A DNA stretch of 64,000 bases, taken from contig JAISUT010000012.1 of the NCBI GenBank assembly GCA_031271905.1, positions 1 to 64,000 on the forward strand, read 5' to 3'. Positions 20,380-40,545 of this stretch are shown here, in pieces. Both the position numbers and the translations under genes were made by a program. Numbering within the stretch: the first letter of the stretch is position 1; the number at the start of each line of letters is the position of its first letter. The stretch is from Acidobacteriota bacterium. Its GTDB lineage: Bacteria > Acidobacteriota > UBA6911. The notes below the pieces were generated by a model. That model saw only the letters and a program-made list of their open reading frames with translations. It was not told where the DNA came from and did no database searches.

Positions 20380-21609
20380 TTATTTCAGGTGCGTCTGGCC
20401 GAGGCGCGCGTCGGCGTCCGCGCGCGGGGCGTTCTTCTCGTTGTCCCAGTACGGGGAGAGCTTGCGCAGGTTCGCCACCACCTTCGGGAGGTGCTCCAGC
20501 ACGTAGTCGATCTCATCCTCGGTGTTGTAGCGGCTCAGGCTGAAGCGGAGGGAGCCGTGGATGGCGGTGAAGGGCACCTTCATGGCGCGCAGGACGTGCG
20601 ACGGCTCCAGCGACCCCGACGTGCATGCCGAGCCGCTGGACGCGCAGATGCCGAGGCCGCTGAGCTGGAACAGCATCCCCTCCCCCTCGATGTAGTGGAA
20701 GGCGATGTTGAGCGTGTTCGGCAGGCGCTCCGCCCCCTTGCCGTTGACCTGCGCGGCGGGGATGCGCTCCATCAACCCCGCCTCCAAGCGGTCGCGCAGC
20801 TTCCCGACGCGCGCCTCGTCCTCGTCCATGCGTTCCGTAGCCAGCTCCAACGCCTTGCTGATGCCGATGATGTAGGGGACGTTCTCCGTCCCCGCGCGCC
20901 GCCCCTCGGCCTGGTGCCCGCCGAAAAGGTAGGGGCGCACCCGCGTCCCCTTGCGCAGGAACAGCACGCCGACCCCCTTGGGCGCGTGCAGCTTGTGACC
21001 CGAGAACGAGAGCATGTCCACGTAGGGGAGCCCGCTCACCAGGTCGATGGGGAGCTTGCCCACGGTCTGCGTCGCGTCCGTGTGGAAGATGATGGACGGG
21101 TCGGTCTGCTTGGCGATGCGCGAAAGCTGGTCGATGGGGAACACCACCCCCGTCTCGTTGTTGGCGTGCATGATGGAGACCATCAGCGTCGCGGGTGAGA
21201 GCGCCTGGATGAACTCGCGGACGTTCAGGTTGCCGTCGCGGTCCACGCCCAGCCAGGTGACCTTGTACCCCTCCCGCTCCAGCTCGCGGCAGACCTCGAT
21301 CACGGCGGGATGCTCGACCGAGGTGGTGATGATGTGGCGCCGCTCCGGGTTGCCGCGCGCCGCGCCGAAGATGGCGGCGTTGTTGCTCTCGCTGGCGCAG
21401 CCGGTGAAAATGACCTCCCTGGGGTCGATGCCGCCCAGGCGGTCGGCGACGCCCTTGCGCGCCGCCCCGAGCGCCTGGCTGGTCTGGCGCGCCGGCTCGT
21501 ACATGGAGCTGGGGTTGAAATAGTCCTCGGTGAAATAGGGTGCCATCGCCTCGTAGACCTCCGGGGCGACCCGCGTTGTGGCGTTGTTGTCGAGATATAT
21601 TGTCTTCAT
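20380..21609 (-). CDS. nifS: Cysteine desulfurase NifS
   Basis: 409 residues, PLP enzyme releasing sulfur from cysteine for Fe-S assembly. It has YLDNNATTRVAPEV at the N-terminus and the HTDATQTVGK pocket. The PLP Lys is in SFSGHKLHAPKG (about 208) and the active Cys loop is SSGSACTSGSLEPSHVL. The short loop spacing and ATT motif are the group I NifS/IscS type. It lies 62 bp downstream of nifU. The two form a NIF-type Fe-S pair, used in many anaerobes for general cluster synthesis; no nitrogenase gene is present here. Confidence 0.96.
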   Translation of the reverse strand: MKTIYLDNNATTRVAPEVYEAMAPYFTEDYFNPSSMYEPARQTSQALGAARKGVADRLGGIDPREVIFTGCASESNNAAIFGAARGNPERRHIITTSVEHPAVIEVCRELEREGYKVTWLGVDRDGNLNVREFIQALSPATLMVSIMHANNETGVVFPIDQLSRIAKQTDPSIIFHTDATQTVGKLPIDLVSGLPYVDMLSFSGHKLHAPKGVGVLFLRKGTRVRPYLFGGHQAEGRRAGTENVPYIIGISKALELATERMDEDEARVGKLRDRLEAGLMERIPAAQVNGKGAERLPNTLNIAFHYIEGEGMLFQLSGLGICASSGSACTSGSLEPSHVLRAMKVPFTAIHGSLRFSLSRYNTEDEIDYVLEHLPKVVANLRKLSPYWDNEKNAPRADADARLGQTHLK

Positions 21610-21671
21610 GGCGCTCCCCCCTCCCCCTATTTCCGCCCTTCCCGCCCTTCTGTCGCGCTTCCTTTACACCC

Positions 21672-22637
21672 TTACACCTCGATGACGCGGATGCGCTCGT
21701 CCACCTGCTCTTTCAGGATGCGCTCCACCATCAGCTTCATCGTGTAGGTGGCGCCGGCGCACCCCTTGCACGCGCCGCGCAGGGAGCAGTAGACCATCGT
21801 CCCCTTGATGTCCACGACCTCTATGTCGCCGCCGTCGCGCTTCAAGCCGGGGCGGACGAACTCGTCGATGACCTTCTCGACCTTCTTGGCGAACTGGAAC
21901 GGGGAGAACTCCGCGACATCCTTCGTCCCGTCCCCGGTCAGCGAGGCGAGCGGCACGATCGGCTTCGCCGCCGCCGCGCCCGCCTTTACGCCCCACACCT
22001 CGTCAAGGATGTCTTGCAGACCGCCCGGCACGTGATGGCAGGACATGCAACCGCCGCCCGCCTTGAGCGCCGCGGTGACCTGCGGGATGGTGCGCAGGTT
22101 CAGCTCGCGGATCTTCCGCTTCAAGTAAGGCTCCGTGACGGAGAAGCACTTGCAGACGACGCGCCCGTCCTCCGTCTCGCCGTCGTGGATGTCCACGCCC
22201 AGCTTCTTCAGATCGACGCCGCGCCGTTGCGCCCAGTTGTAGACGGCGGCCTCCAACGCCTCCGCGCCCATCACGGAGCAGTGGATCTTCTGCTCGGGCA
22301 GCCCTTCGAGGTAGTCCACGATGTCCTTGTTCTGGATGTTCAGCGCCGTGATCGGCGTGTATTGCCCCGCCTCGATGATCTCGCACAACGCCTCGGACGA
22401 GGCGATGGCCGAGGTGCAGCCGAAGGTGAGGTACTTCGCCTCGGTGATCACGTCCTGGGTCGGGTCGCTCGGATGCCGCCGGACGCGGAAGGTGAAACGC
22501 ATGGCGTCGCCGCAAGCTATGGAACCATGCTCCCCCATGCCGTCCGGGTTCTCGATCTCGCCCAAGTGGGTGCCGGGCTTGCCCTGCACGGCGTCCATGA
22601 AAAGCTGCTTGGTCTTCTCGCTGTATTCCCAGCCCAT
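21672..22637 (-). CDS. nifU: NifU three-domain Fe-S scaffold
   Basis: 321 residues. The start at 22637 (MGWEYSEKTKQLFMDAV) has GGAG upstream. The N-terminal IscU-like domain has cluster Cys in SIACGD, TFGCTSA and IHCSVMG. The middle [2Fe-2S] BFD-like domain has VCKCFSV and GGGCMSCHH. The C-terminal NifU/Nfu domain has GACKGCAGAT. All nine expected Cys are visible. It assembles clusters with sulfur from the adjacent NifS. The Lys/Ala/Pro-rich linker (about 212-240) before the Nfu domain is typical. Confidence 0.95.
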   Translation of the reverse strand: MGWEYSEKTKQLFMDAVQGKPGTHLGEIENPDGMGEHGSIACGDAMRFTFRVRRHPSDPTQDVITEAKYLTFGCTSAIASSEALCEIIEAGQYTPITALNIQNKDIVDYLEGLPEQKIHCSVMGAEALEAAVYNWAQRRGVDLKKLGVDIHDGETEDGRVVCKCFSVTEPYLKRKIRELNLRTIPQVTAALKAGGGCMSCHHVPGGLQDILDEVWGVKAGAAAAKPIVPLASLTGDGTKDVAEFSPFQFAKKVEKVIDEFVRPGLKRDGGDIEVVDIKGTMVYCSLRGACKGCAGATYTMKLMVERILKEQVDERIRVIEV

Positions 22638-22880
22638 TTCAAACTCCAATGCCGCCGCCTGGCCGGTGCGAACCCTATCCGCCTCCGCGCCCGCGACGGC
22701 TCTAAACGTTGTCCGATAACTATACTGCGTTTGGGAAGGGCTGACAATGCCGGGCACCCGTCCCCGGACGTCCCCGCCCCACCGGCGCGCTCCGCGACCG
22801 CATGGTCAAATCCCGCCCCGCCCTTAGGCCTGGGGAGGCGCCTTCTGGCGCCGCCGACGCCCCGGCTTCGCCCCCGGATG

Positions 22881-29382: not shown

Positions 29383-30645
29383 TCAGTTGACCGCCCCGCT
29401 CCGATCCTCGTTCCAGATCGCCCGCGAGACGGCGCTCAAGCTGAAGTTGGGGAGCATGCAGACCGGCTTGCCATGCTTTTTGCCCAGCTTCTTGATGATC
29501 AGGCAGGCGGCGTGGCTGTTGCAGTTGATCGGGCACAGCACCATGTCGGCGCGCTTCAGGCAGCACTCCAGCTCCCGCGCCCCCTTCTTCACATGACCGT
29601 CGTGGTATTCCATGACGCCGCCGCCGCCCTCGATGAGCTTGCGGTAGCGCGACTCCATGCGTTCGATGCCGCCGACGATCAGGATGCGCTTGCGGCACAG
29701 GTCGGAGACCGGGCAGTCGTCGTCGCACTCCCGGCACTGCGTGGCCGCCGCAACCTCTCCATACGCCCCTTGCGCCTCGCCGGAAGGGTCGGAGGGGAAG
29801 GGCGCGCGGTCGTAACGCGCCTTGGAATCACGCGACCGCTCCAGTTGCCGCGACAAGCCGGCGTTCTCCTCCTCCAGCAAAGCCGCGTACTGCGAGGCGT
29901 CCTCGCATCGCCGCCTCATGTCCTCGAACATCGCGCGCCACTGCAACGACTCCCCGGCGGCGGCCTCGGCCTCGGCGTCCCGCCTCTGCCGGACGTCCAG
30001 CTCGCCTTGCAGGCGGAGGCGCTCCGACTGCGAGTGCGCCAGCGCGCCTTGCGATTTCTCCAACTCCCGCCGGCAGGCGTCCAGTTCCTTTTGCAACGTC
30101 CTCTTGTCGGCGGCGGCCTGGCGCAGTTCCAGCCGGAGCGCCTCCGTGCCTTCGCCCGCCCGCACCGCCTCCCGTGCGGCTTGCCTCCGCTCGCCGATGG
30201 CGGCGTGCATGGCCATGTGGAGTTCGCCGAAGACCTCCCGCTTCAGCTCCAAGCCGAGGTCGCTCCGCACCGCCGCCGCCCACAGCGCCGCCTCCATCCC
30301 CTCGGACGGCAACGCCTCGCGGAAACGTTCCGCGAAAGCCTCCCGGGGGAGGTTCAGCAGACCGGCGGCATCCCGCGCGTATTTGCGTTGCAACAGGGTG
30401 TCGATGCGCCGCGACAGGCCGTTCTCGCCCCCTGCGGCGGCCACCAACGCTTCGTGGACTTCGTAGGGGGCGGCGTCGGCGATGCGGGCGCCGCTCCGTT
30501 TCAACAGGGATCGCTGCTCCGCATGGGAAAGGCACGCACCGACCACGGGGCATCGGAAACAGGAGTCGATCTCCCAAAACCGCAGGCGCGGCGGGGCTTC
30601 GTCCACATTCGTCGAAGAAAGGGGTGGGGTCGCTTCCGGCATCAT
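29383..30645 (-). CDS. Coiled-coil protein with two Cys clusters and C-terminal DUF2325
   Basis: 420 residues. The N-terminus has CFRCPVVGAC. The middle (about 150-270) is a long coiled coil rich in Glu/Arg/Leu. A second cluster, CRECDDDCPVSDLC, precedes the DUF2325 domain, which begins KRILIVGGIERMESRYRKLI and includes CPINCNSHAA. The clusters look able to bind metal or an Fe-S centre. The function of DUF2325 is not established. AAGGAG lies before the ATG pair at 30645/30642. Its promoter carries the shared TTAG-N6-CTAA palindrome, and the divergent gene is an imelysin, so I place it in the metal/haem regulon by context only. Confidence 0.75.
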   Translation of the reverse strand: MMPEATPPLSSTNVDEAPPRLRFWEIDSCFRCPVVGACLSHAEQRSLLKRSGARIADAAPYEVHEALVAAAGGENGLSRRIDTLLQRKYARDAAGLLNLPREAFAERFREALPSEGMEAALWAAAVRSDLGLELKREVFGELHMAMHAAIGERRQAAREAVRAGEGTEALRLELRQAAADKRTLQKELDACRRELEKSQGALAHSQSERLRLQGELDVRQRRDAEAEAAAGESLQWRAMFEDMRRRCEDASQYAALLEEENAGLSRQLERSRDSKARYDRAPFPSDPSGEAQGAYGEVAAATQCRECDDDCPVSDLCRKRILIVGGIERMESRYRKLIEGGGGVMEYHDGHVKKGARELECCLKRADMVLCPINCNSHAACLIIKKLGKKHGKPVCMLPNFSLSAVSRAIWNEDRSGAVN

Positions 30646-30793
30646 GTCATCTCCTTTGTCTGCGCTTAAGCCGTTCTCGAGGAAAAAGGCGCGTCCCCGG
30701 CCGTCCGGGTGTCCGCGCCTTCACTTGTCCCGCGCCTCTGGGGGCGAAACCCGTAAGACCGCCCGGAGCTCCCGTCCGGGCCGCACGAATTTA

Positions 30794-30822
30794 TTTATAA
30801 TCGCTTATTTTTTTAGCGTCAA
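30794..30822 (-). promoter_or_regulatory. Promoter of the DUF2325 gene
   Basis: Minus strand: TTGACG (30817-30822) and TATAAA (30794-30799) with 17-bp spacing. The -35 hexamer is exactly the spacer of the TTAG-N6-CTAA palindrome, so a bound regulator would occlude it. Confidence 0.65.
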
Positions 30823-30827
30823 CTAAT
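30812..30827. promoter_or_regulatory. Operator palindrome TTAG-N6-CTAA, site 1
   Basis: The sequence TTTAGCGTCAACTAAT contains TTAG/CTAA arms around 6 bases. The same arms and spacing occur at 36141 and 39579. Sites 1 and 3 share the longer form TTAGC-N4-ACTAA. It lies in the divergent region between the DUF2325 and imelysin genes. Confidence 0.65.
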
Positions 30828-30859
30828 TTTTTTATCCAAATCGTCATTTTTTTCGCGGA

Positions 30860-30875
30860 TGTGACCTCAGTCACA
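30860..30875. promoter_or_regulatory. Perfect Crp/HcpR-type site TGTGA-N6-TCACA
   Basis: TGTGACCTCAGTCACA is a perfect dyad matching the CRP consensus and extends as A-TGTGA...TCACA-A. It lies 173 bases upstream of the first imelysin ATG. The local Crp/Fnr protein has the helix RETFSR, with the Arg, Glu and Arg that read TGTGA in CRP. Confidence 0.6.
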
Positions 30876-31047
30876 AGCCCGCGCCGCCCCACCGTGTATA
30901 TTTCGCCTTCCTCGGTTCGCCGCGACGGGCGGGCCGGGGAGTCGTGGCGCGTCGCCGCCTTTGCTTTCGGGGCGGCGCGCGTTGCGGCAATCGCGAGGGC
31001 GATGCCACTGATGGAAATCCAGGGGGCTTGGAGGCCACGGAGGGGGC

Positions 31048-32091
31048 ATGGGGTTTTCATGGACGACGACATTGTTGCTGGCGGCGGCTTGCGGCACCGC
31101 TTTCGCCGGACCGACGGAGTCGGACGCAGTCGCCGCCTTCGTATCCGGCGGCGCGCGCCCCGGCGTGTCCCAGGCGGCGGCGACCGCAGACCGGTTGGCG
31201 GCGGCGTCCCGGAAGCTGTGCCTCCAGCCGGGGGAGGGCGCCCTTCGGCAGGCGCGCGAGGCGTGGCGTGACGCCTATCGGGCGTGGCGGCGGGCGGAGC
31301 CGTTCCTGTTCGGCCCCGCCGACAAGCTGGAGCAGCGTTTCGGGAGCTGGCCGACGAACGCCGTCGTCCTCGACGCGGCGGTGTCCTCGCCGGAATACCG
31401 GGACGTGCGGGGCAATGCGGACGTGCGCGGCTTCCCCGCATTGGAACACCTGCTGTTCGCGCCGCGCTCCGCCAAGGAGGCGACCGCCGGGGAGCGGTGC
31501 GCGCACCTCGCGGACGTGTCGGGGGAGGTCGCGGAATTGACGCGCGCCATCGACCGCGCATGGCGGCAGGACTTCGGCAAGGGGTTCGCCTCCGCCGGAG
31601 ACGGGAAGCCTTTCCTCGTCCCCGGCGACGCCCTCGGCATGGCGATGACCAAGGCGGTGGGCGTCACCGAGCACCTGTTGCGGGAGCGGATAGGATTGCC
31701 CGCCGGTTTTTTCAAGGCGCCTCCCAAGGCGGACTACCTCGAGGCATGGCTCAGCCGCGACACCTTGGACGGGTTCAAGGCGGCCGTCGAAGGGTTGCGC
31801 ATGTCCCTGTCGGGCGGCGGCGAAGCCGCCATCCTGGAGCTGCTCGCCACCAAAGACGGGCTGGTGGAGAAGAAGGACCCGGCGCTCGCGTCGGATATAC
31901 GCAAACAGCTCGCCAAGATCGAAAGAGCCGTTGACGGGCTTGGGGACGGCGACCGCATACGCCGCGACCCCGCGAAGCTCAAGGGGCTGTACAAGCAGGT
32001 GCAGACGCTGCAAGACCAGTTGATCGAGGCGTCGCTCGTCTTGGAGCTGGATGTCAACGTGATCGAGCTGGGGGCGCGCACGCAATGGTGA
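31048..32091 (+). CDS. Imelysin-family iron-regulated lipoprotein/periplasmic protein (COG3489-like)
   Basis: 347 residues with a signal (GFSWTTTLLLAAACGTAFAG). The all-helical imelysin fold is seen in WRDAYRAWRRAEPFLFGP and in RGFPALEHLLF, the imelysin GxHxxE position. That position reads GFPALE here, a variant I believe common in the COG3489 branch. The C-terminal half has DALGMAMTKAVGVTEHLL and the closing LVLELDVNVIELG. Imelysins are linked to iron uptake and are usually Fur-controlled. GGAGGGGG lies before the ATG. The stop overlaps the start of the next imelysin by 7 bp. In pseudomonads imelysins flank a DUF1111 gene, as here. Confidence 0.82.
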   Translation: MGFSWTTTLLLAAACGTAFAGPTESDAVAAFVSGGARPGVSQAAATADRLAAASRKLCLQPGEGALRQAREAWRDAYRAWRRAEPFLFGPADKLEQRFGSWPTNAVVLDAAVSSPEYRDVRGNADVRGFPALEHLLFAPRSAKEATAGERCAHLADVSGEVAELTRAIDRAWRQDFGKGFASAGDGKPFLVPGDALGMAMTKAVGVTEHLLRERIGLPAGFFKAPPKADYLEAWLSRDTLDGFKAAVEGLRMSLSGGGEAAILELLATKDGLVEKKDPALASDIRKQLAKIERAVDGLGDGDRIRRDPAKLKGLYKQVQTLQDQLIEASLVLELDVNVIELGARTQW

Positions 32092-33278
32092 GGGGCGCGG
32101 GCAAGGCATGTCATCGCTTGGCGGGGCTGATCCTCGTCGTCGTCGCGCTGGTCTTGGGCTGCATCCTCGCCTCGCGGAACGACGATGTGAAAAGGTCGCT
32201 CAGGGCGCGGCAGGCGAAGCTGGCGCTACGCGACTACGCGGACAACACCGTCTTGCGGACGCTGGCGGCGCTGGCGGAGGATGCCGGACGGCTGGACGCG
32301 GCGGCGGCCAGGCTCCGGGAGACGCGGAGCGACGCGGACGCCGCCGCCGCCGTCGCAGCGTGGGAAACCGCATACGGCACGTACCTGATGACCGAGGCGT
32401 TCCACTACGGCCCGGCCTCATGGCGCGACTACGACAAGCGCCTCGCCACCTGGCCGTTTGACAAGGTCCTCGTGGATCACGCCTTGGCGGAGATGGCGGC
32501 GGGCAGGTTGGAGATGACGTCTTCCAATCTTCGCGAGGAGAACGCCTCCTCGATGCGGGGCTTCCACGTCGTGCGGCACCTGCTGACACGCGGCGGGCGT
32601 CCTCGCCGCGCACAGGACATCGGTGCCGCCGAACTGGACTACCTGGTCGCCGCCACGCGGTCTTTGCACGAGGAGAGCGTAGACTTCGAAGCCTCCTGGC
32701 GCGGCACGGCGAACCTCCCCGCCGCACGGGCCGCAGTCGCGCGTCAGTCGCGCTTCCCGGAACGGGCGGCGTTCGCCGACGAATTCAAGAACCCCGGCGC
32801 CCCCGGCAGCAGGTACGCCTCCCTCGCCATCCCCCTGCAAGAGGTGTTCCAAGAGGTCGCGAGCGTGGGGGAGGACACGCTGGCGGGCATAGGGGCGTTG
32901 CGCGACGAACTCGCGCCGCCGCCCGGGGGGCGCGGCTATTGGAGCGGCGACGACCCTTGCGCAGACCTGCTCCATAGGCTCAAGGGGGCGGAAAACGCAT
33001 GGCTCGGAGGCGTCGAGGGGACGCGCGGGCATTCCGTGTCGGAGTTGGCGTCGGGTTACAGCCGGGTGATGGATCGGCGGGTGAAGATCGCCTTCGCCCA
33101 TACGGCATACCGCATCGCCGCTGTCCGCGACCTCGGCGATGCGGCGCCGGAGGAGCGGGAGTTGGCGATCCGGCGCGCCGAGGCGGAGTGCGAGAAGCTC
33201 CTGGCTCGCGTCGCCGCCGTGACGGCGCCGCTGGCGATGGATCCGTCGGTCGGCCCCTGGGCCGCATACGGCAGGTGA
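32085..33278 (+). CDS. Second imelysin-like protein, membrane anchored
   Basis: 397 residues. An N-terminal helix (LAGLILVVVALVLGCILAS) probably anchors it, facing the periplasm. Imelysin-like segments are WETAYGTYLMTEAFHYGPAS, TWPFDKVLVD and SMRGFHVVRHLL. In this protein the GxHxxE position reads GFHVVR, so the His is kept and the Glu replaced by Arg. Later blocks are YASLAIPLQEVFQEV and GYSRVMDRRVKIAFAHTAYR. It overlaps imelysin 1 by 7 bp, so the two are co-translated and may be partners. Confidence 0.75.
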   Translation: MVRGAGKACHRLAGLILVVVALVLGCILASRNDDVKRSLRARQAKLALRDYADNTVLRTLAALAEDAGRLDAAAARLRETRSDADAAAAVAAWETAYGTYLMTEAFHYGPASWRDYDKRLATWPFDKVLVDHALAEMAAGRLEMTSSNLREENASSMRGFHVVRHLLTRGGRPRRAQDIGAAELDYLVAATRSLHEESVDFEASWRGTANLPAARAAVARQSRFPERAAFADEFKNPGAPGSRYASLAIPLQEVFQEVASVGEDTLAGIGALRDELAPPPGGRGYWSGDDPCADLLHRLKGAENAWLGGVEGTRGHSVSELASGYSRVMDRRVKIAFAHTAYRIAAVRDLGDAAPEERELAIRRAEAECEKLLARVAAVTAPLAMDPSVGPWAAYGR

Positions 33279-33416
33279 TTCGGCGCGTCGCCCCGTCGTT
33301 TGACGCAGGGGCGTCCCTTGCGGGGTGCGGCGCGAGGCGTCCTGGGCGCTCTCCGCGCCGCAAACGGCGGGGGCGGCGGATGGGGGAGTCGGCGGATTGG
33401 GAAAAGGATGACGGAC

Positions 33417-34886
33417 ATGAACGCGAAGGCTTTCCTTGCATCTGGTAAATTCGTTCCGCTGGCGCTGGGCGTGGCCGTGGGGGGCGCCTGGCTGGCAGGC
33501 GGCTTCCGTCTGCCGCTCTTTGCCACGAGCAGCGTAGGCGGCGTCCCGCCGGGGCTTTCCGAGGAGTATTTCACCGGCGGGCGCAACGGCACGGTCTTCA
33601 ACACCACGACGCGCTGCCTGGAGATGCCCGCGCCCGCCGTCGCCGCCGACCCGTCGTTGCAAGAGCGGTTCAACGCGGGGGAGCTGATCTTCGAGGCGGA
33701 GTTCGTGACCGACCGCGACGCCCCTTACGGGGGGCTGGGCCCGACCTACAACAAGACCTCTTGCAAGAACTGCCACCCCAACTACGGGCGGGGCCGCCGC
33801 GTCGAGAAGTTCTCCGAGCAGTTCGGCAACGGCTACATCGCGATGGTCCACACCCCGGACGGCCGGATCGCGGACGGCTACACGTTCATGCTTCAGACGA
33901 TGGCGACGCCCCCGTACAAGCCGCCCGCCAAGGGGGTGGACATACGCTGGCTCGAATTCACGGACGAGTATGGCAACAAGTACCCGGACGGCGCCCCGTA
34001 CAACCAAGGGACGCCTTTTGAAGGAACTTTGATCTATCCGGCGGCGTCCCTGATAGAGCCGCTGTTGCCGCTTCCCAATGATTACAGGGTCAGCCTCGAA
34101 TCCACCATCGGCCTGTACGGAACCGGCCTCCTGGACGCCATCAAGGACGAGGACGTCGTCGCGGAATACGAGCGCCAGCAGGCCGACTCCGGCCCAGTCA
34201 AGGGGCGGCTCGGCGACTGGATCACCGAGGCGTTCGACGGGAAGCGGCATCTCGGCCGCTTCACCTGGCACAACACGCGGGCGACCCTGATGAACGGCCC
34301 CGGCTTCAACGGCGTGTGGAACGTCACCAACGTCACCCGCGAGGACAGGCCGCAGCTCGAGGCGACGCGGCGGTGGGTGGACGCGCAGGCGCGGCTGGGG
34401 CTGGACGTCGCGCCGCTGGTCGCCCGCCAACCCGTGGAGATGTCCGTCAAGGACTTGGACGACCTGATGGTCTGGTCGCGGGGGTTGGCGGTGCCCGCCG
34501 CGCGCAACCTCGACGACCCGGAGGTGAGGCGGGGCAAGGAGCTCTTCCACTCCACCGGCTGCGCCTCGTGCCACAAGCCTTCGTGGGTCACGGGCGAATA
34601 CGAATACCTGCCCGGCTATTCGCGCCAGAAGATCTGGCCGTACACCGACCTGCTGTTGCACGACATGGGGCCGATGAACAGGGCTTTCCGCACGACGCCC
34701 CTGTGGGCGCGGGGGCTTATGTACAACGTGGCGGACCACACGGACATGTGGCACGACCTGCGCGCCCGCAACTTCGAGGAGGCCGTCTTGTGGCACTTCG
34801 GCGAGGGGAAGGCGGCGCGGGAGGCGTTCCGGCGGCTGCCGGCGCCGGCGCGCGCCGCGCTGATAAAGTTCTGCAAATCGATATGA
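33417..34886 (+). CDS. DUF1111 di-haem c-type oxidoreductase (MauG/CcP-like)
   Basis: About 489 residues. I chose the ATG at 33417 because AAAAGGA lies 8 bases upstream. An N-terminal membrane segment (FVPLALGVAVGGAWLAGGF) exports it. Two haem c motifs are present: CKNCH (about residue 119) and CASCH (about 382). Flanking blocks typical of DUF1111 are GLGPTYNKTSC, FTWHNTRATLMNGP and DLLLHDMG. The family resembles di-haem cytochrome c peroxidases and stands beside imelysin genes in several proteobacteria, where it is iron-regulated. It is third gene of the imelysin operon. Confidence 0.85.
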   Translation: MNAKAFLASGKFVPLALGVAVGGAWLAGGFRLPLFATSSVGGVPPGLSEEYFTGGRNGTVFNTTTRCLEMPAPAVAADPSLQERFNAGELIFEAEFVTDRDAPYGGLGPTYNKTSCKNCHPNYGRGRRVEKFSEQFGNGYIAMVHTPDGRIADGYTFMLQTMATPPYKPPAKGVDIRWLEFTDEYGNKYPDGAPYNQGTPFEGTLIYPAASLIEPLLPLPNDYRVSLESTIGLYGTGLLDAIKDEDVVAEYERQQADSGPVKGRLGDWITEAFDGKRHLGRFTWHNTRATLMNGPGFNGVWNVTNVTREDRPQLEATRRWVDAQARLGLDVAPLVARQPVEMSVKDLDDLMVWSRGLAVPAARNLDDPEVRRGKELFHSTGCASCHKPSWVTGEYEYLPGYSRQKIWPYTDLLLHDMGPMNRAFRTTPLWARGLMYNVADHTDMWHDLRARNFEEAVLWHFGEGKAAREAFRRLPAPARAALIKFCKSI

Positions 34887-34897
34887 GGGGGGGCGGC

Positions 34898-36070
34898 ATG
34901 GAGCGCACAGAAGCGAGGTTCGACGGCACGGAGCTGGCGGCGGCATCGTTCACGGCTGGCGGCGTTACGGAGACCCACCTGTTCGCCAAGGGGGGCGAGG
35001 GCGATTTCGCCCGCCAACTGGGGGGCGTGGTCGGCGCGCTGGACGCCTACTTGCGTGAAAACGGCGTCGCGCGCGGGGCGGTGGCGTTCGCACGGTATTT
35101 CGTCAGCGACTACGCCAACCAGGCCGGGGCGCTCCGCGACATCGTCGAGTGCGGCGCGACCTGCGCCCTCTCCATCGTCCAGCAGCCGCCCCTCGGCGGC
35201 GGCAAGGTCGCGGCATGGTTCTACGTCATCGACGACCGGACGGGCGTGCCGTCAACAGCCGAGGCCGTCCCCGGCTCCGCGCCGGGAGGCGGCCTGCGGC
35301 TCAAGCGCGGGGCGTACGAACACCTTTGGTGCACCAGGCTCACGTCCGGCGACGGCGCGGCGGACTCTTTCCAGCAGACCGCCCGCATCTTCGCCGACTA
35401 CGGCGACAGGCTGGAGAGGCATGGCTGCACCTTGAAGGACAACCTCGTCCGCACCTGGCTGTTCGTGAAGGACATCGACTCCGACTACCAGGGGCTTGTG
35501 GATGCGCGACGGGAGTTCTTCCACGGGCACGGCATGACCGAGCGGACGCATTACGTCTCCAGCACGGGCATCGGCGGCAGGGCGTCCGACCCGCGCGTCA
35601 ACGTCCTGATGGACGCCTACGCCGTCAAGGGCGTGTCCCCGCGCCAGATCAGGTTCCTGCAGGCGCCGGAGCGCCTGAACCCGACCCACGAGTATGGCGT
35701 GACGTTCGAGAGGGGGACGGGCGTCGATTACGGCGACCGGCGGCACGTCTTCATCTCGGGGACCGCCAGCATCGACCGCGCGGGCGGCATCCTGCATGAG
35801 AACGACGTGCGCCGCCAGACGGACAGGGCGTTGGAGAACGTCGAGGCGTTGCTCGCCGACGGCGGCGCGACGGTCGGCGACGTGGCGCAAATGATCGTGT
35901 ACCTCCGGGACGGCGCGGACGCGCAGGCTGTGGCGGAGCGGTTGTGCGGCGGTTGGCGCGCCGTCCCCAAGGTGGTGGTGCTGGCGCCGGTCTGCCGCCC
36001 CGGCTGGCTGGTCGAGGTCGAATGCATCGCCGTCGCTCCGGCGTCCAACCCCGGGTTCGCCAGCTTCTAA
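34898..36070 (+). CDS. Two-domain Rid (YjgF/YER057c/UK114) superfamily protein
   Basis: About 390 residues, clearly longer than single-domain RidA (130). The C-terminal third holds the Rid core: HVFISGTASIDRAGGILHEN, QTDRALENVEALLADGGATV, then VAQMIVYLRD and LVEVECIAV. The N-terminal two thirds (VRTWLFVKDIDSDYQGLVDA, RTHYVSSTGIGGR) resemble chorismatase/FkbO-type Rid relatives. A chorismate- or imine-directed activity is possible but unproven. The ATG at 34898 follows a run of Gs. The DUF1111 stop lies 11 bases before it. In other imelysin loci this fourth place is usually a different gene (DUF1513). Confidence 0.72.
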   Translation: MERTEARFDGTELAAASFTAGGVTETHLFAKGGEGDFARQLGGVVGALDAYLRENGVARGAVAFARYFVSDYANQAGALRDIVECGATCALSIVQQPPLGGGKVAAWFYVIDDRTGVPSTAEAVPGSAPGGGLRLKRGAYEHLWCTRLTSGDGAADSFQQTARIFADYGDRLERHGCTLKDNLVRTWLFVKDIDSDYQGLVDARREFFHGHGMTERTHYVSSTGIGGRASDPRVNVLMDAYAVKGVSPRQIRFLQAPERLNPTHEYGVTFERGTGVDYGDRRHVFISGTASIDRAGGILHENDVRRQTDRALENVEALLADGGATVGDVAQMIVYLRDGADAQAVAERLCGGWRAVPKVVVLAPVCRPGWLVEVECIAVAPASNPGFASF

Positions 36071-36128
36071 TCCCTTTCCAACGCCGATGGTTCGCTTGGC
36101 GCTTCGCGTCAAGAAACATTTTTTTTAT

Positions 36129-36157
36129 TTGACAAATTATTTAGTCATCACTAAAGT
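36129..36157 (+). promoter_or_regulatory. sigma70 promoter of the small-protein/P-type ATPase operon
   Basis: TTGACA (36129-36134) and TAAAGT (36152-36157) with exactly 17 bp between. The palindrome at 36141-36156 fills the spacer and overlaps the -10, a classic repressor position. Confidence 0.75.
36141..36156. promoter_or_regulatory. Operator palindrome TTTAGT-CATC-ACTAAA, site 2
   Basis: Perfect 6-bp arms around 4 bases. It contains the TTAG-N6-CTAA core found at 30813 and 39580. Here the core dyad is the longest and lies between -35 and -10. Confidence 0.7.
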
Positions 36158-36214
36158 GTTGTGGTCTCACTACTGGTTGTTTCGAAAGCTCGTAATTGTA
36201 AAAGGAGGCTTGTG

Positions 36215-36529
36215 ATGGCTGAAGACAATCCTAAGATTTTTACGAAAACACCGTTCATTTTCGCCGCCGGCGCCGCCGCCGGCGTCATCTTCCACATGTT
36301 CGCCCGCAGCGACAAGATGCGTTCCCTCACGGTGAACGCCCTCGCCAAGGGGATGCAGATCAAGGACGACGCCCAGGCGTCGCTGGCGTCCATCCGGGAG
36401 GACGCCGAGGACATCTATGCCGAGGCCCGGCAACAGGCGCAGGCCGGGGCGAAACCCGCACCGCCCGCCACACGCAACCGCCGCACGGCGGTCTCCGGCA
36501 AAACCGCGACCGCCGGGGCGCGGGAATGA
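36215..36529 (+). CDS. Small single-span membrane protein paired with the P-type ATPase
   Basis: 104 residues, start at 36215 behind AAAGGAGG. One hydrophobic span (TPFIFAAGAAAGVIFHMF) is followed by an amphipathic helix (KDDAQASLASIREDAEDIY) and a basic Ala/Pro/Thr tail. The stop overlaps the ATPase start by 4 bp. The layout (short TM protein directly before a divergent P1B ATPase) recalls the mycobacterial PacL-CtpC pairs. The metal-binding Asp/His tail of PacL is not visible here, so the relation is by arrangement only. Confidence 0.65.
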   Translation: MAEDNPKIFTKTPFIFAAGAAAGVIFHMFARSDKMRSLTVNALAKGMQIKDDAQASLASIREDAEDIYAEARQQAQAGAKPAPPATRNRRTAVSGKTATAGARE

Positions 36530-38631
36530 CCCCGAAGATCGCCAGCGACATCCCGGGGCGGCTGCGCGTCCGTTTCGGGCGCGACGCCTTTTCGCCCGAC
36601 CAGTGCGGCGCCGTGGAGAACCTGGCCCTCGCCGTGGGCGGCGTCACTTTCGCCCACGCCTGCCACCGGACGGGAAGCCTGCTCGTGCATTACGAAGGGG
36701 GGGGGCGCGACGCGATCCTGGAGAAGGTCGCGCGCGCGGACCTCGCCGCGCTCGCCCCGATGGAGTCGCTGGCGTCGACTACGCCTTTCATCGACCCCGA
36801 GCTGGGCAGGAGGCTCGCGCTGATGATTGCGCGGCGCTTCGCCACCCGCTACCTCGTACCCCGCCCCGTCCGACTCGTCCTCGCATTCTTCCGCGCGCTC
36901 CGCTTCGTCAGGAAAGGGCTCTCCCGCCTGCTCGGCGGGCGCGTCGACGTGGACGTGCTCGATGCGTCGGCCGTCAGCACCGCCATGCTCCAGGGGAAGT
37001 ACGACACGGCGGAGTCGATCATGTTCCTCCTCTCCGTGTCCGAGGTCATGGAGCGGCACACGCTGGAGAGGACGCGCAAGGTGCTGTTCGAGAGCCTGCG
37101 GTTCCGCATCGAGCGCGCCTGGGCGTTGCGCGACGGCGTGGAGGTGTCCGTCCCGTTCAGCGAGATCGCGGTCGGCGACCTGGTCGTCGTCCGCACCGGC
37201 GGCTCGGTTCCCGTGGACGGCGAGGTCGTGGAGGGGGAGGCCGAGGTCAACGAGGCGGCGATGACCGGAGAGCCGATGGCGGTCTTCAAAAAAGCGGGGG
37301 ACAGCGTGTTCGCCGGGACGGTGTTGGAGGACGGGCGCCTGGTGGTCAAGGTCCGCGTGGCGGAGGAAGGGACGCGCATCCACCACATCATGTCGCTCAT
37401 CGAGGAGTCCGACTCGCTGAAAGCCTCCGTCCAAGGGCGCGCCGAAGCCCTCGCCGACCGCCTGGCGCCGTACAACTTCCTGCTCGCAGCGCTGGTCTAC
37501 GCCGCGACCGGCAACTTCTCCAAGGCGTCGTCCGTGCTGTTGGTCGATTATTCCTGCGCCATAAAGCTCTCCACGCCGATAGCGGTCATGTCGGCCATGC
37601 GCGAGGCGTCCGAACGCGGCATCGTCGTGCGCGGAGGGAAGTACCTCGAAAAGGTCGCGGAGGCGGACGTGTTCGTCTTCGACAAGACCGGCACCCTGAC
37701 GCTCGCCGAACCCCATGTGAAGAAGGTCGTCCCCTTGGACGGGCGGTCGCGCGAAGAGACGTTGCGTCTCGCGGCCTGCATAGAGGAGCACTTCCCGCAC
37801 AGCGTGGCGCGCGCCATCGTCCGCGCGGCGAAGGACGCGCGTCTGAAGCACGAGGAGGAGCACGCCGAAGTCCAATACGTCGCCGCCCACGGCATCGTCA
37901 CCTCCGTGAACGGCCACCGGGCGCTCATCGGCAGCCGCCACTTCCTGTTCGAGGACGAGGGCATCCCCCTCTCGGCGGCGCACCGGCGGCGGCTCGACGC
38001 CGAGGCCGATTCCGTGGTCTGCCTGGCGGTGGACGGGAAGTTCGCGGGGTACATCGTGATCGACGACCCGTCCCGCCCCGAGGCCGCCGCCGCCGTCGCC
38101 GACCTGCGCGCCTCCGGCGTCGGGCGGATCATCATGCTCACGGGCGACGGCGAGAGGGCCGCGCGCAAGACCTGCAAGGAGCTCGGCATCGACGTCTGGC
38201 GCTCGGGGCTCCTGCCCGAGGACAAGGCGGCGTTCATCCGCAAGCTGCGTGAAGAGGGGCACACGGTCGCGATGGTCGGCGACGGGATCAACGACTCGCC
38301 CGCGCTGACGACCGCAGACGTGTCCATCGCGATGCAGGACGCCTCGGATCTGGCGCGTGAGGCGGCGGACATCACCATCAGCGTCCCGGACCTCCGGCAG
38401 TTGGCGGTGTTGCGCAGGCTGGGGCAAAGCCTGCTGAAGCGCATCCTGGACAACTACAAGGTCATCGTCGGGTTCAACTCCGCACTGCTCGTCGGCGGCT
38501 TGGCGGGGGCGATCACGCCGGGCGTGTCCGCCCTGCTGCACAACCTTTCGACGATGGGCGTCAGCGCGATGAGCATGCGCCCCCGCCTCCCTCCCGGAAG
38601 CGGCGTCCGCACCGTCACCCCGCCGCGCTGA
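36526..38631 (+). CDS. Divergent heavy-metal P1B-type ATPase (CtpC-like)
   Basis: 701 residues. A degenerate N-terminal HMA-like domain (IPGRLRVRFGRD) lacks CxxC. The A-domain has MTGEP (about 246-250). The phosphorylation site is DKTGTLT (386-392). The hinge is GDGINDSPAL (about 585-594). The HP motif of P1B pumps is present (EEHFPHSVARAI). The membrane metal site, normally CPC or SPC, reads VDYSCAIKLSTP (about 340-351), so the first Cys and the Pro are replaced. Metal choice cannot follow the standard CPC rule; Mn, Fe or Zn export are possible. The gene ends convergent with and 17 bp inside the Crp/Fnr gene. Confidence 0.82.
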   Translation: MTPKIASDIPGRLRVRFGRDAFSPDQCGAVENLALAVGGVTFAHACHRTGSLLVHYEGGGRDAILEKVARADLAALAPMESLASTTPFIDPELGRRLALMIARRFATRYLVPRPVRLVLAFFRALRFVRKGLSRLLGGRVDVDVLDASAVSTAMLQGKYDTAESIMFLLSVSEVMERHTLERTRKVLFESLRFRIERAWALRDGVEVSVPFSEIAVGDLVVVRTGGSVPVDGEVVEGEAEVNEAAMTGEPMAVFKKAGDSVFAGTVLEDGRLVVKVRVAEEGTRIHHIMSLIEESDSLKASVQGRAEALADRLAPYNFLLAALVYAATGNFSKASSVLLVDYSCAIKLSTPIAVMSAMREASERGIVVRGGKYLEKVAEADVFVFDKTGTLTLAEPHVKKVVPLDGRSREETLRLAACIEEHFPHSVARAIVRAAKDARLKHEEEHAEVQYVAAHGIVTSVNGHRALIGSRHFLFEDEGIPLSAAHRRRLDAEADSVVCLAVDGKFAGYIVIDDPSRPEAAAAVADLRASGVGRIIMLTGDGERAARKTCKELGIDVWRSGLLPEDKAAFIRKLREEGHTVAMVGDGINDSPALTTADVSIAMQDASDLAREAADITISVPDLRQLAVLRRLGQSLLKRILDNYKVIVGFNSALLVGGLAGAITPGVSALLHNLSTMGVSAMSMRPRLPPGSGVRTVTPPR

Positions 38632-39349
38632 TGCGCTTCAACGCGTCGAGGTCGCGGATCTCCACGATGCCGTTTCGCAGGCGGATGACGTCCTTCTTCT
38701 GCAGGGCGGCGAGCGCCCGTGAGAAAGTCTCCCGGGCGAGGCAGATGTCCGTGGCCGCCAACCCGAGCGGACGAAGGTCGGCGGACAGCCCCGGACGGTC
38801 GTCGCGCCCGGGGCAACCGTCGCAGTTGGCGCATCGGTGCAGCAGGTATTCCGCCACCCTCGGGAGCGCTTGGGGCTTCCGGCAGATGCAGGTGAGGCGG
38901 CAGAAGTCCTCGAAATTCCCCGAGAGGGCGGACGCCACATGGAACGCCAAGGCGGAGTCCTGCTTGACCATCCGCTTGAAGGTTTCCACATCCCACGAAA
39001 AGCAGGTCGATGGACTCAACGCCTCGCAGTGGTAGGAATGCCGCCGCGCCTGCGTGAATGCGACGTGCAGGGAGATGTGGCTTCCGGGGACTTGGATGCA
39101 GCGCAGGCAGCTTTCCCCGGACTCGCTCGCGTAGTATTCCTTCAGCTTGCCCGCGAGGAGGCAGTGGATGGAGCGGACGGGATCCCCCTCCATGAAAAGG
39201 AACTCCCCCTTGTGCAGCTTCCGCGCTACACCCATTTGCAGAAGCCGCTCCTGAAGTTCGGGCGAAAGGTCTTTGACGAGGGGCGAGCGCGTCAGGATGT
39301 CGCGTTCGTCGGACGACAGCCCCGGTACGCGCAACGACCGCGTTGTCAT
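38615..39349 (-). CDS. Crp/Fnr-family transcription regulator with Cys insert
   Basis: 244 residues. The N-terminal cyclic-nucleotide-binding fold has LHKGEFLFMEGDPVRSIHCL, a dimerisation helix and a C-terminal winged helix. The recognition helix LARETFSRALAALQ carries the Arg-Glu-xx-x-Arg set of CRP (RETVGR). Between dimer helix and HTH is an insert, HRCANCDGCPGRDD. With CRLTCICR just before it, this gives five Cys and a possible metal, Fe-S or redox site. The usual cAMP-contact motif is not evident. Its own far-upstream promoter (39607-39635) carries the shared palindrome. HcpR-like sensing of redox or NO is possible. Confidence 0.82.
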   Translation of the reverse strand: MTTRSLRVPGLSSDERDILTRSPLVKDLSPELQERLLQMGVARKLHKGEFLFMEGDPVRSIHCLLAGKLKEYYASESGESCLRCIQVPGSHISLHVAFTQARRHSYHCEALSPSTCFSWDVETFKRMVKQDSALAFHVASALSGNFEDFCRLTCICRKPQALPRVAEYLLHRCANCDGCPGRDDRPGLSADLRPLGLAATDICLARETFSRALAALQKKDVIRLRNGIVEIRDLDALKRISAAG

Positions 39350-39578: not shown

Positions 39579-39594
39579 TTTAGCCGGAACTAAA
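39579..39594. promoter_or_regulatory. Operator palindrome TTAG-N6-CTAA, site 3
   Basis: TTTAGCCGGAACTAAA, extending to TTTTAG/CTAAAA (39578-39595). It lies just downstream of the -10 of the regulator promoter, near the expected transcription start. Confidence 0.68.
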
Positions 39595-39800: not shown

Positions 39801-40346
39801 CTACCGCTGCTCTATCCACGAGACGATTTCGGGCGCGTCGGGCGGGGTCTTGGGCTCGAAGGTCCCGGCCCAGCCGCCGTTCTCGTCGATGAGGAACTTC
39901 TGGAAGTTCCAAGTCACGTCCGCGTCTTGGCGTCCGTTTTCGTCCTTGCGGGTGAGCCAGCGGTAGACCGGGGCGATGTCCTCCCCCTTGACCGATATCT
40001 TCGACATCATGGGGAAGGTGACGCCGTAGTTCACCGAGCAGAACTGGGCGATCTCCCCGTCCGTCCCCGGCTCCTGTCCGGCGAAGTCGTTGGCGGGGAA
40101 TCCGAGGATCACGAAATCCCCTTTGCCATATTTGTCGTACAGCGCTTGCAGTTGCTTGTACTGCGGCGTGAGCCCGCATTTCGAGGCCACGTTGACCACC
40201 AGGATCTTCTTCCCCTTGTATTGCGACAGCGGCACCGTCTTGCCGTCGATGGACTTGACGGCGAAATCGTGGAAATTCTTGCTTTGCGCCGCGAGCGTCA
40301 GCGGCGTCAAGACCGCCAGCGCGACCAAAAGAATCGTTCTCGTCAT
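39801..40346 (-). CDS. Secreted glutathione peroxidase-family thiol peroxidase
   Basis: 181 residues with a signal peptide (TRTILLVALAVLTPLTLAAQ). The peroxidatic Cys is in NVASKCGLTPQY (Cys57). The other tetrad parts are visible: Gln in GFPANDFAGQEPG and the Trp-Asn pair in VTWNFQKFL. A Cys in EIAQFCSVNYG may be the resolving residue, which would make it thioredoxin-dependent. It reduces hydrogen or lipid peroxides in the periplasm. GAGGAG precedes the ATG. It is a single-gene transcript with its own promoter and terminator. Confidence 0.9.
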   Translation of the reverse strand: MTRTILLVALAVLTPLTLAAQSKNFHDFAVKSIDGKTVPLSQYKGKKILVVNVASKCGLTPQYKQLQALYDKYGKGDFVILGFPANDFAGQEPGTDGEIAQFCSVNYGVTFPMMSKISVKGEDIAPVYRWLTRKDENGRQDADVTWNFQKFLIDENGGWAGTFEPKTPPDAPEIVSWIEQR

Positions 40347-40456
40347 GGGATGCTCCTCTATGCCTTGTGCGGATGGGGACTGCATGCGGTGTCTTGCCTT
40401 CTCCAGCCGGATGACCACGTACATCGCGTGGGCGCGACCGCCCTTGTGTCCCGTGC

Positions 40457-40487
40457 AGTATACCAGCCCGCCCGGCGTTCGGCGCAA
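40457..40487 (-). promoter_or_regulatory. Probable gpx promoter with extended -10
   Basis: Minus strand TTGCGC (40482-40487), 19-bp spacer and TGGTATACT (extended -10; hexamer at 40457-40462). Just upstream is a perfect 12-bp tandem direct repeat (40489-40512, GTGTTTTGCGGG on the plus strand). Confidence 0.5.
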
Positions 40488-40545
40488 GGTGTTTTGCGGG
40501 GTGTTTTGCGGGGCGCGGGCGGGGTGCGGCATCCCGCATCCTGAA

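Follow-up and report, generated by a model that had tools for sequence, protein, structure and literature searches.

A putative DtxR- and Crp-controlled iron locus combining two imelysins, a di-haem oxidoreductase and a chorismatase-like Rid protein in an Acidobacteriota genome

What do a DUF2325 protein, two imelysins, a periplasmic di-haem oxidoreductase (DHOR, DUF1111), a Rid protein, a small transmembrane (TM) protein and a P1B-type ATPase do together when their genes stand side by side? This question is raised by positions 29383-38631 of contig JAISUT010000012.1 from an Acidobacteriota bacterium (assembly GCA_031271905.1), of which a stretch of 64,000 nucleotides (the window) was analysed. 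An earlier note had proposed a metal- or haem-handling system under shared operators. All the families that it named are present, and the locus proved real and larger than first described, with a Crp/Fnr gene (38615-39349) also part of the gene set. The locus is probably one part of an iron-acquisition regulon of several operons, with a plan resembling that of EfeUOB, in which DtxR with bound iron represses and Crp activates. Iron is taken as the metal because of FeoB, FTR1, DtxR and the imelysins; nothing tested pointed to haem as the substrate, so that the suggested haem phenotype found no support. The features of the locus, with the basis of each call in brackets, are as follows.

29383-30645, minus strand: DUF2325 protein (Pfam PF10087, E 2.7e-24)
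30794-30822, minus strand: DUF2325 promoter, TTGACG - 17 bp - TATAAA, its -35 element within the DtxR-type box (read by hand)
30812-30827, no strand: DtxR-type box TTTAGCGTCAACTAAT, one mismatch to the palindrome (14/16 bases as in the feoB box, read on the other strand)
30860-30875, plus strand: Crp-type box TGTGACCTCAGTCACA of the imelysin operon, with TATATT (30897-30902) 21 bp on (only copy in the window, 0.02 expected)
31048-32091, plus strand: imelysin A (PF09375, E 1.7e-45)
32085-33278, plus strand: imelysin B (PF09375, E 3.7e-21)
33417-34886, plus strand: DHOR/DUF1111 (PF06537, E 2.4e-48)
34898-36070, plus strand: Rid protein (match to FkbO/Hyg5 chorismatase, its best named relative, at E 2.9e-14 and far under the cut-off)
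36095-36113, plus strand: terminator-like hairpin and T run closing the imelysin operon (terminator scan)
36129-36157, plus strand: promoter of the ATPase pair, TTGACA - 17 bp - TAAAGT (sequence)
36140-36155, no strand: DtxR-type box TTTAGTCATCACTAAA, between and over the promoter elements of the ATPase pair (sequence)
36215-36529, plus strand: PacL-like small membrane protein (DUF6110/DUF1490 matches under the Pfam cut-offs)
36526-38631, plus strand: P1B-type ATPase (TIGR01525, E 2.5e-147)
38615-39349, minus strand: Crp/Fnr-family regulator (PF00027 and PF13545)
39579-39594, no strand: DtxR-type box TTTAGCCGGAACTAAA, just downstream of the Crp-gene promoter (sequence)
39635-39607, minus strand: Crp-gene promoter, TTGACA-17-TATAAA (read by hand)

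The genes for imelysin A, imelysin B, DHOR and Rid (31048-36070) are separated by gaps or overlaps of a few bases, except for about 140 bp ahead of DHOR, and the DUF2325 gene is divergent from them. The hairpin at 36095-36113, which is argued by position and not by count since the scan gave fewer sites than were found in shuffles, and the promoter at 36129-36157 split the ATPase pair from this operon. A single transcription unit was thus not borne out.

The separate units share a palindrome of the type TTTAG-N6-CTAAA, found at all three promoter regions (DUF2325/imelysin, ATPase pair and Crp gene), which confirmed the shared operators proposed earlier. The sequence TTTAGNNNNNACTAA gave four matches in the window, corresponding to three sites (one counted on both strands) where 0.01 were expected, and its only exact copies in the 3.4 Mb genome are those at 30812, 36140 and 39579. 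By hand reading, the box lies over the -35 element (DUF2325), between and over the elements (ATPase pair) or after the -10 element (Crp gene), all of them positions at which a repressor would act. Outside the window, there are only two perfect palindromes, one some 55 bp upstream of feoB (contig C67) and the other close to uvrC (C61). One-mismatch copies are located where the single dtxR gene identified in the genome begins (C67:76060), whose product is a DtxR-FeoA fusion, and ahead of a secretion-like operon on contig C43 (C43:49892). Because it marks feoB, the only dtxR gene and the secretion-like/FTR1 operon as well, TTTAG-N6-CTAAA is likely a DtxR box, and its presence at feoB and dtxR supports the proposed role in metal handling, with iron as the most likely metal. 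The site near uvrC (C61:68488) and another at C52:84452 are probably due to chance, and the many perfect copies in two congener genomes look like repeat ends and give no support.

Downstream of both the DtxR-type and the Crp-type box, C43 encodes a lipoprotein, pseudopilins, PilM-/GspM-like, T2SSE, T2SSF and secretin-like proteins, MoxR, a TgpA-like transglutaminase and FTR1. The names GspM, PilM, secretin, MoxR and TgpA were assigned from similarity to Desulfobulbus elongatus and by reading of the sequence, without a Pfam hit. The FTR1 iron permease at the end of this type-II-secretion-like operon is the sole copy in the genome; it does not share an operon with an imelysin, as in EfeUOB, but is part of the same putative regulon. 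A rubrerythrin-like gene comes after FTR1.

The neighbourhood check suggested in the earlier note found the families together in D. elongatus DSM 2908, reached through a scan for the Rid family, where DUF2325, the P1B ATPase, both imelysins, DHOR and Crp share a stretch of 12.5 kb that feoAB immediately precede. About 42 kb of its contig 9 carry feoA, feoA, feoB, FeoC, a porin-like gene, DUF2325, a small protein, a flavodoxin and an HMA-like protein, followed by the P1B ATPase (44% identity), imelysin A (42%), imelysin B (42%), DHOR (66%) and Crp (42%) and, in the remainder, by secretion-like genes (GspE 65%), MoxR, TgpA, FTR1, Rid and a small CxxCH protein. FeoB and DtxR are 37% and 52% identical, respectively. 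The ATPase and the imelysins are adjacent and co-directional, downstream of one operator. TTAG-N6-CTAA occurs three times in 19.5 kb and three times in 12 kb (0.01 expected in each case). There are boxes ahead of feoA (a tandem pair), of DUF2325 and of the secretion-like genes, and one 33 bp upstream of an ABC gene, behind which the dtxR homologue is located. In both this genome and D. elongatus, a palindromic operator is thus found at dtxR and feo promoters and at target genes, the arrangement that characterises a DtxR regulon.

In a Geobacteraceae metagenome-assembled genome (MAG), one contig has the order Rid-imelysin A-small protein-pseudopilin and a second one TgpA-FTR1-imelysin B-DHOR-FbpABC. 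With this genome and D. elongatus, three genomes thus link the secretion-like genes to FTR1, the imelysins, DHOR and Rid, in varied arrangements. The Rid promoter of this MAG has a TGTGA box with one mismatch. Just before that box (L066 9780-9833) stands the Fur-box-like sequence TTGATAATGATTTTC, and Fur may act at this Rid-imelysin A promoter in DtxR's stead.

The small protein ahead of the ATPase has one TM helix with KTPFIFAAGAAAG (Lys, then Gly at +8 and +12) and an acidic/Ala-rich tail. Its matches fell short of the Pfam gathering thresholds (DUF6110, 20.7 against 26 bits; DUF1490, 19.4 against 28.4 bits), but it has the PacL/DUF6110 arrangement of a single TM helix with a Lys/Gly motif directly ahead of a P1B ATPase; the Gly spacing differs slightly from the +8 and +11 of the defined motif (PMC13043812). 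DUF6110 proteins are PacL relatives without the metal-binding tail, mostly encoded with P1B-6 ATPases, of which the HN motif has been named as a feature (PMC9374683). The window ATPase, with SCA in TM4, HN in TM6 (ALLHNLST, the last TM) and an N-terminal HMA-like domain without CxxC, is P1B-6-like, and it is not called an iron exporter because the characterised iron-exporting P-type ATPases are P1B-4 (PMC7762939). The pair thus resembles PacL-CtpC and DUF6110-P1B-6 pairs (PMC9374683, PMC13043812) in its order and its HN motif, whereas its small protein is of the DUF6110 and not the DUF1490 type, lacks a C-terminal His motif for metal binding and stands under an iron-regulon operator; in D. elongatus, an HMA-like small protein occupies that position. 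The same small-protein position ahead of P1B ATPases was seen in Deinococcus and Azospirillum.

An alternative is that the locus consists of two unrelated adjacent modules, an ordinary imelysin-DHOR operon for iron and an independently controlled P1B-6/PacL-like pair for metal resistance. It would account for the terminator and second promoter between them, for the ATPase pairs without imelysins in Deinococcus and Azospirillum and for imelysin-DHOR genes without an ATPase in genome G117 and most Bacteroidota. Given the same operator at both promoters, the D. elongatus ATPase and imelysins behind one operator, and an iron ABC transporter adjoining the Azospirillum pair as well, two independent modules are considered unlikely.

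The iron regulon proposed here includes a second element, TGTGA-N6-TCACA. A 16-mer identical to TGTGACCTCAGTCACA is located ahead of the secretion-like operon on C43, 71 bp from its DtxR-type box, and the motif occurs four times in 18.5 kb of C43 and four times in 19.5 kb of D. elongatus (0.01 expected in each). Of ten boxes examined across three genomes, nine are spaced 20-21 bp from a downstream -10-like hexamer (background 0.9%), which centres them near -41.5. A TGTGA box at such a distance from the -10 element is the class II layout of Crp/Fnr activation. The local Crp/Fnr protein has the recognition helix ARETFSRAL and a CRxxCxCRK motif between its domains, both retained in the D. elongatus protein; helices of the form R-E-x-x-x-R are those of Crp-type TGTGA binders. 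Judged by these motifs, the local protein probably binds the TGTGA-N6-TCACA boxes. The further alternative that it occupies TTTAG-N6-CTAAA, in place of DtxR, could be based on the half-site spacing, which is the same as in Fnr/Crp boxes, and on the exact 15-mers, which occur only around this locus. It is rather improbable, as the helix fits TGTGA, separate TGTGA boxes are correctly spaced from the -10 element and the TTAG box is found at dtxR in two genomes. TGTGA boxes with correct -10 spacing at L167 3804 and 8088 precede a gene whose start is at L167:3974 and a hydrolase gene that is divergent, which may be further Crp targets.

The DUF2325 protein comprises an N-terminal CxxCPxxGxC motif, a long middle region predicted as coiled in the earlier note, a CxxCx3CPxxxxC motif and the C-terminal DUF2325 domain. 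Its counterpart in the D. elongatus island is a full-length homologue (27% identity) with the cysteine motifs mostly in register. Its relatives on plasmids have no imelysin nearby, and one on a Methylorubrum plasmid, near molybdate genes, was taken as a different context. A second, short DUF2325 gene (G000:C33, locus L161, 3640-4137) adjoins a molybdopterin oxidoreductase/ferredoxin pair.

Imelysins have been linked to iron and to di-haem peroxidases of this kind (PMC3143127). Both proteins of the window contain the M75/imelysin domain (two PF09375 matches), with a signal peptide in imelysin A and an N-terminal hydrophobic anchor or lipobox in imelysin B. Neither has the canonical GxHxxE motif, which is replaced by GFPALE in imelysin A (IPPA type, an accepted variant) and by GFHVVR in imelysin B (His retained, Glu changed to Arg). 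Imelysin A is 52% identical to its Geobacteraceae (L066) and 42% to its D. elongatus counterpart, imelysin B 42-43% to both, and the adjoining DHOR, with CxxCH at residues 116 and 382, 66-68% to both. Pfam detected no cupredoxin domain on the imelysins (the EfeO model, with a cut-off of 270, scored 19.9 bits), and plasmid searches with imelysins A and B gave no match.

With DUF2325, a DHOR peroxidase, the cysteine-bearing Crp protein and a glutathione peroxidase, the genes could instead form an oxidative-stress or redox regulon that guards against peroxide. The Campylobacter DUF2325 protein Cj1384 is PerR-controlled and adjoins katA (PMC9426514), a GSHPx-family gene (39801-40502) lies near the cluster and the rubrerythrin-like gene follows FTR1. 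Such a role is given little credence, because the operator marks feoB and dtxR and not peroxidase genes, and the partners elsewhere are FTR1 and FbpABC.

An odd member of the proposed iron regulon is the Rid protein, a single chain of 390 residues without a signal peptide and with three Rid-like subdomains by strand/helix order (AlphaFold model, pLDDT 91.8). Its best full-length solved fold matches are the FkbO and Hyg5 chorismatases (4bps, 5ag3, 5a3k; 350 columns), with a TM-score of 0.60 over the query. Residues C366, R367 and E373 align with C327, R328 and E334 of Hyg5, of which Glu-334 is essential (PMC7170507), and the Cys, Arg and Glu are invariant across 28 sequences. Rid thus shares the overall fold, the aligned Cys and Arg and an equivalent of the catalytic Glu-334 with FkbO/Hyg5/XanB2, but differs in its low identity (~20%), its length (390 against ~340 residues), its iron-gene partners and its score for NCBIfam TIGR04444 (53 bits, far under the cut-off of 325). 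Based on the model, it is predicted to be chorismatase-like and to act on chorismate or a similar substrate. The reading as a plain RidA imine deaminase comes second, since over the full length it was chorismatases that gave the best fold matches.

A survey of Rid genes covered the best 80 genome loci, of which the 62 with at least 6.5 kb upstream were counted as adequately covered. Imelysin and DHOR were located beside Rid in 39 of these 62, nearly all from Bacteroidota, and the commonest order was porin-imelysin-DHOR-porin-cytochrome c-Rid. The earlier note had placed Rid in the usual position of DUF1513, and Rid is indeed a recurrent partner of imelysin and DHOR in Bacteroidota. One tree-supported Rid family (quick method, long outgroup branches) unites the window, the Geobacteraceae MAG, D. 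elongatus and Bacteroidota. Among the papers listed in the literature searches, none mentioned a link of Rid or chorismatase to imelysin-DHOR. In many Bacteroidales (loci L059-L145), a hemerythrin-domain protein and a LuxR-type response regulator adjoin the porin-imelysin-DHOR-Rid cluster. Plasmids of Acidiphilium and Acidithiobacillus (L060, L061, L063) carry a cassette SCP2-U32-U32-Rid-pdxS-pdxT (U32, peptidases), followed in 2/3 loci by an anaerobic ribonucleotide reductase. These surroundings recall oxygen-independent ubiquinone synthesis, a context that would fit a chorismate-using enzyme.

Several observations weigh against a DtxR-controlled iron regulon. Genome-wide, perfect copies of the box number 4 against 3 for a reversed control and one-mismatch copies 23 against 61, so that the case for the operator rests on its clustering at iron genes and its conservation. 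The feoB box sits between feoA and feoB, not ahead of feoA, and no box was seen at feo in congeners, in which no P1B ATPase was found at the threshold used. A P1B efflux pump switched on by iron shortage would be unusual. Complete co-occurrence was found in this assembly and in a single further genome. Finally, Rid was not seen beside both imelysin and DHOR in 29 genomes, and 15 of these have no imelysin that was found and 14 have one, so that the partnership is common, not obligatory.

The complete island is rare: when 395 genomes of the D. elongatus phylum were searched with a profile of imelysin B, only D. elongatus itself matched. The window's own phylum says little, since among 149 genomes imelysin and DUF2325 were each found in two (one DUF2325 match over the cut-off); DHOR was found in 28. 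One of its members, G117 (locus L160, 7032-10994), has porin-imelysin-DHOR with the canonical GFHAIE and without Rid or DUF2325 nearby. Horizontal transfer is likely behind this patchy distribution. Origin of the genes from a contaminating metagenome contig, as might be suspected from the 67 contigs of the genome and from the tested congeners, in which imelysin, DUF2325 and P1B ATPase were not found, is very improbable given an estimated contamination of 1.5%, the sharing of one or both operators by three separate large contigs (one of them with dtxR) and the ordinary glnB-glnD sequence adjoining the cluster.

In the proposed iron-acquisition regulon, DtxR-Fe(II) would sit on or beside the promoters and repress them when iron is sufficient, whereas iron shortage together with an active Crp/Fnr regulator would allow expression of the genes. 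The two imelysins would then bind iron or pass it on, either in the periplasm or at a membrane, DHOR would carry out a redox step in place of the peroxidase EfeB, and FTR1 and FeoB would import iron. In the same response, the PacL-like/P1B-6 pair could export a competing metal or deliver metal into the periplasm. Rid might act on chorismate or a similar enol-ether/imine substrate and supply an aromatic acid to the system, and the DUF2325 protein, rich in cysteines, would accompany the system in the cytosol, perhaps as a sensor of metal or redox state or as a chaperone. More tentatively, a dedicated type-II-secretion-like machine (pseudopilins, GspE/F/D-like proteins, MoxR and TgpA) could work with FTR1, the two imelysins, DHOR and a Rid protein whose aromatic product would be needed to capture or reduce iron, switched by DtxR and the Crp protein of the cluster, with the simpler porin-imelysin-DHOR-porin-cytochrome c-Rid core as a standard iron system of gut Bacteroidales.

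With the known imelysin-DUF1111 iron module, the locus shares an operon that combines two imelysins (one of the GxxxxE kind) with a di-haem DUF1111 protein and is, by prediction, controlled by iron. That module is Fur-controlled, whereas DtxR-type and Crp-type boxes are found here, together with Rid in the operon, a divergent DUF2325 gene, GxHxxR in imelysin B and FTR1 in the regulon. The plan of EfeUOB/M ferrous iron transporters recurs in the FTR1 permease, imelysin-domain protein and haem peroxidase-like enzyme, but the imelysins are without a cupredoxin domain, DHOR replaces the DyP-type EfeB and FTR1 is on another contig, beside TgpA/MoxR and secretion-like genes; in the Geobacteraceae MAG it adjoins imelysin B. 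As in known Feo-DtxR regulation, FeoA/FeoB are found beside a DtxR-family regulator with palindromic TTAG...CTAA boxes, but DtxR is fused to a FeoA domain and the putative regulon also takes in the operons of the imelysins, the P1B ATPase and the secretion-like genes.

All of the component families have been described before. In the literature searched, no description was apparent of their combination, of a regulon with these two operators or of the Rid partner, and none of the papers listed combined imelysin, FTR1 and type II secretion. The proposed regulon brings DUF2325, DUF1111/DHOR, partial-motif imelysins, a DUF6110-like PacL protein and a chorismatase-like Rid clade together under named regulators and operators, so that the roles of these orphan families can be tested jointly in the cultured type strain D. 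elongatus DSM 2908. The Rid-imelysin-DHOR link extends to dozens of Bacteroidota genomes, common gut species included; with its core common in gut Bacteroidales and the kit recurring in unrelated bacteria, it bears on what imelysins and DUF1111 enzymes do, which a 2011 structural study left open.

On its left, the cluster is flanked by glnB and glnD (named from sequence) and ordinary genes, and on its right by the glutathione-peroxidase-like gene and the genes for a membrane protein with a VTT domain and an outer membrane efflux protein of the OEP family. At 20380-22757, at a distance of about 7 kb, lies an iron-sulphur assembly pair, a NifS-like aminotransferase and a NifU protein with a middle BFD-type [2Fe-2S] domain.

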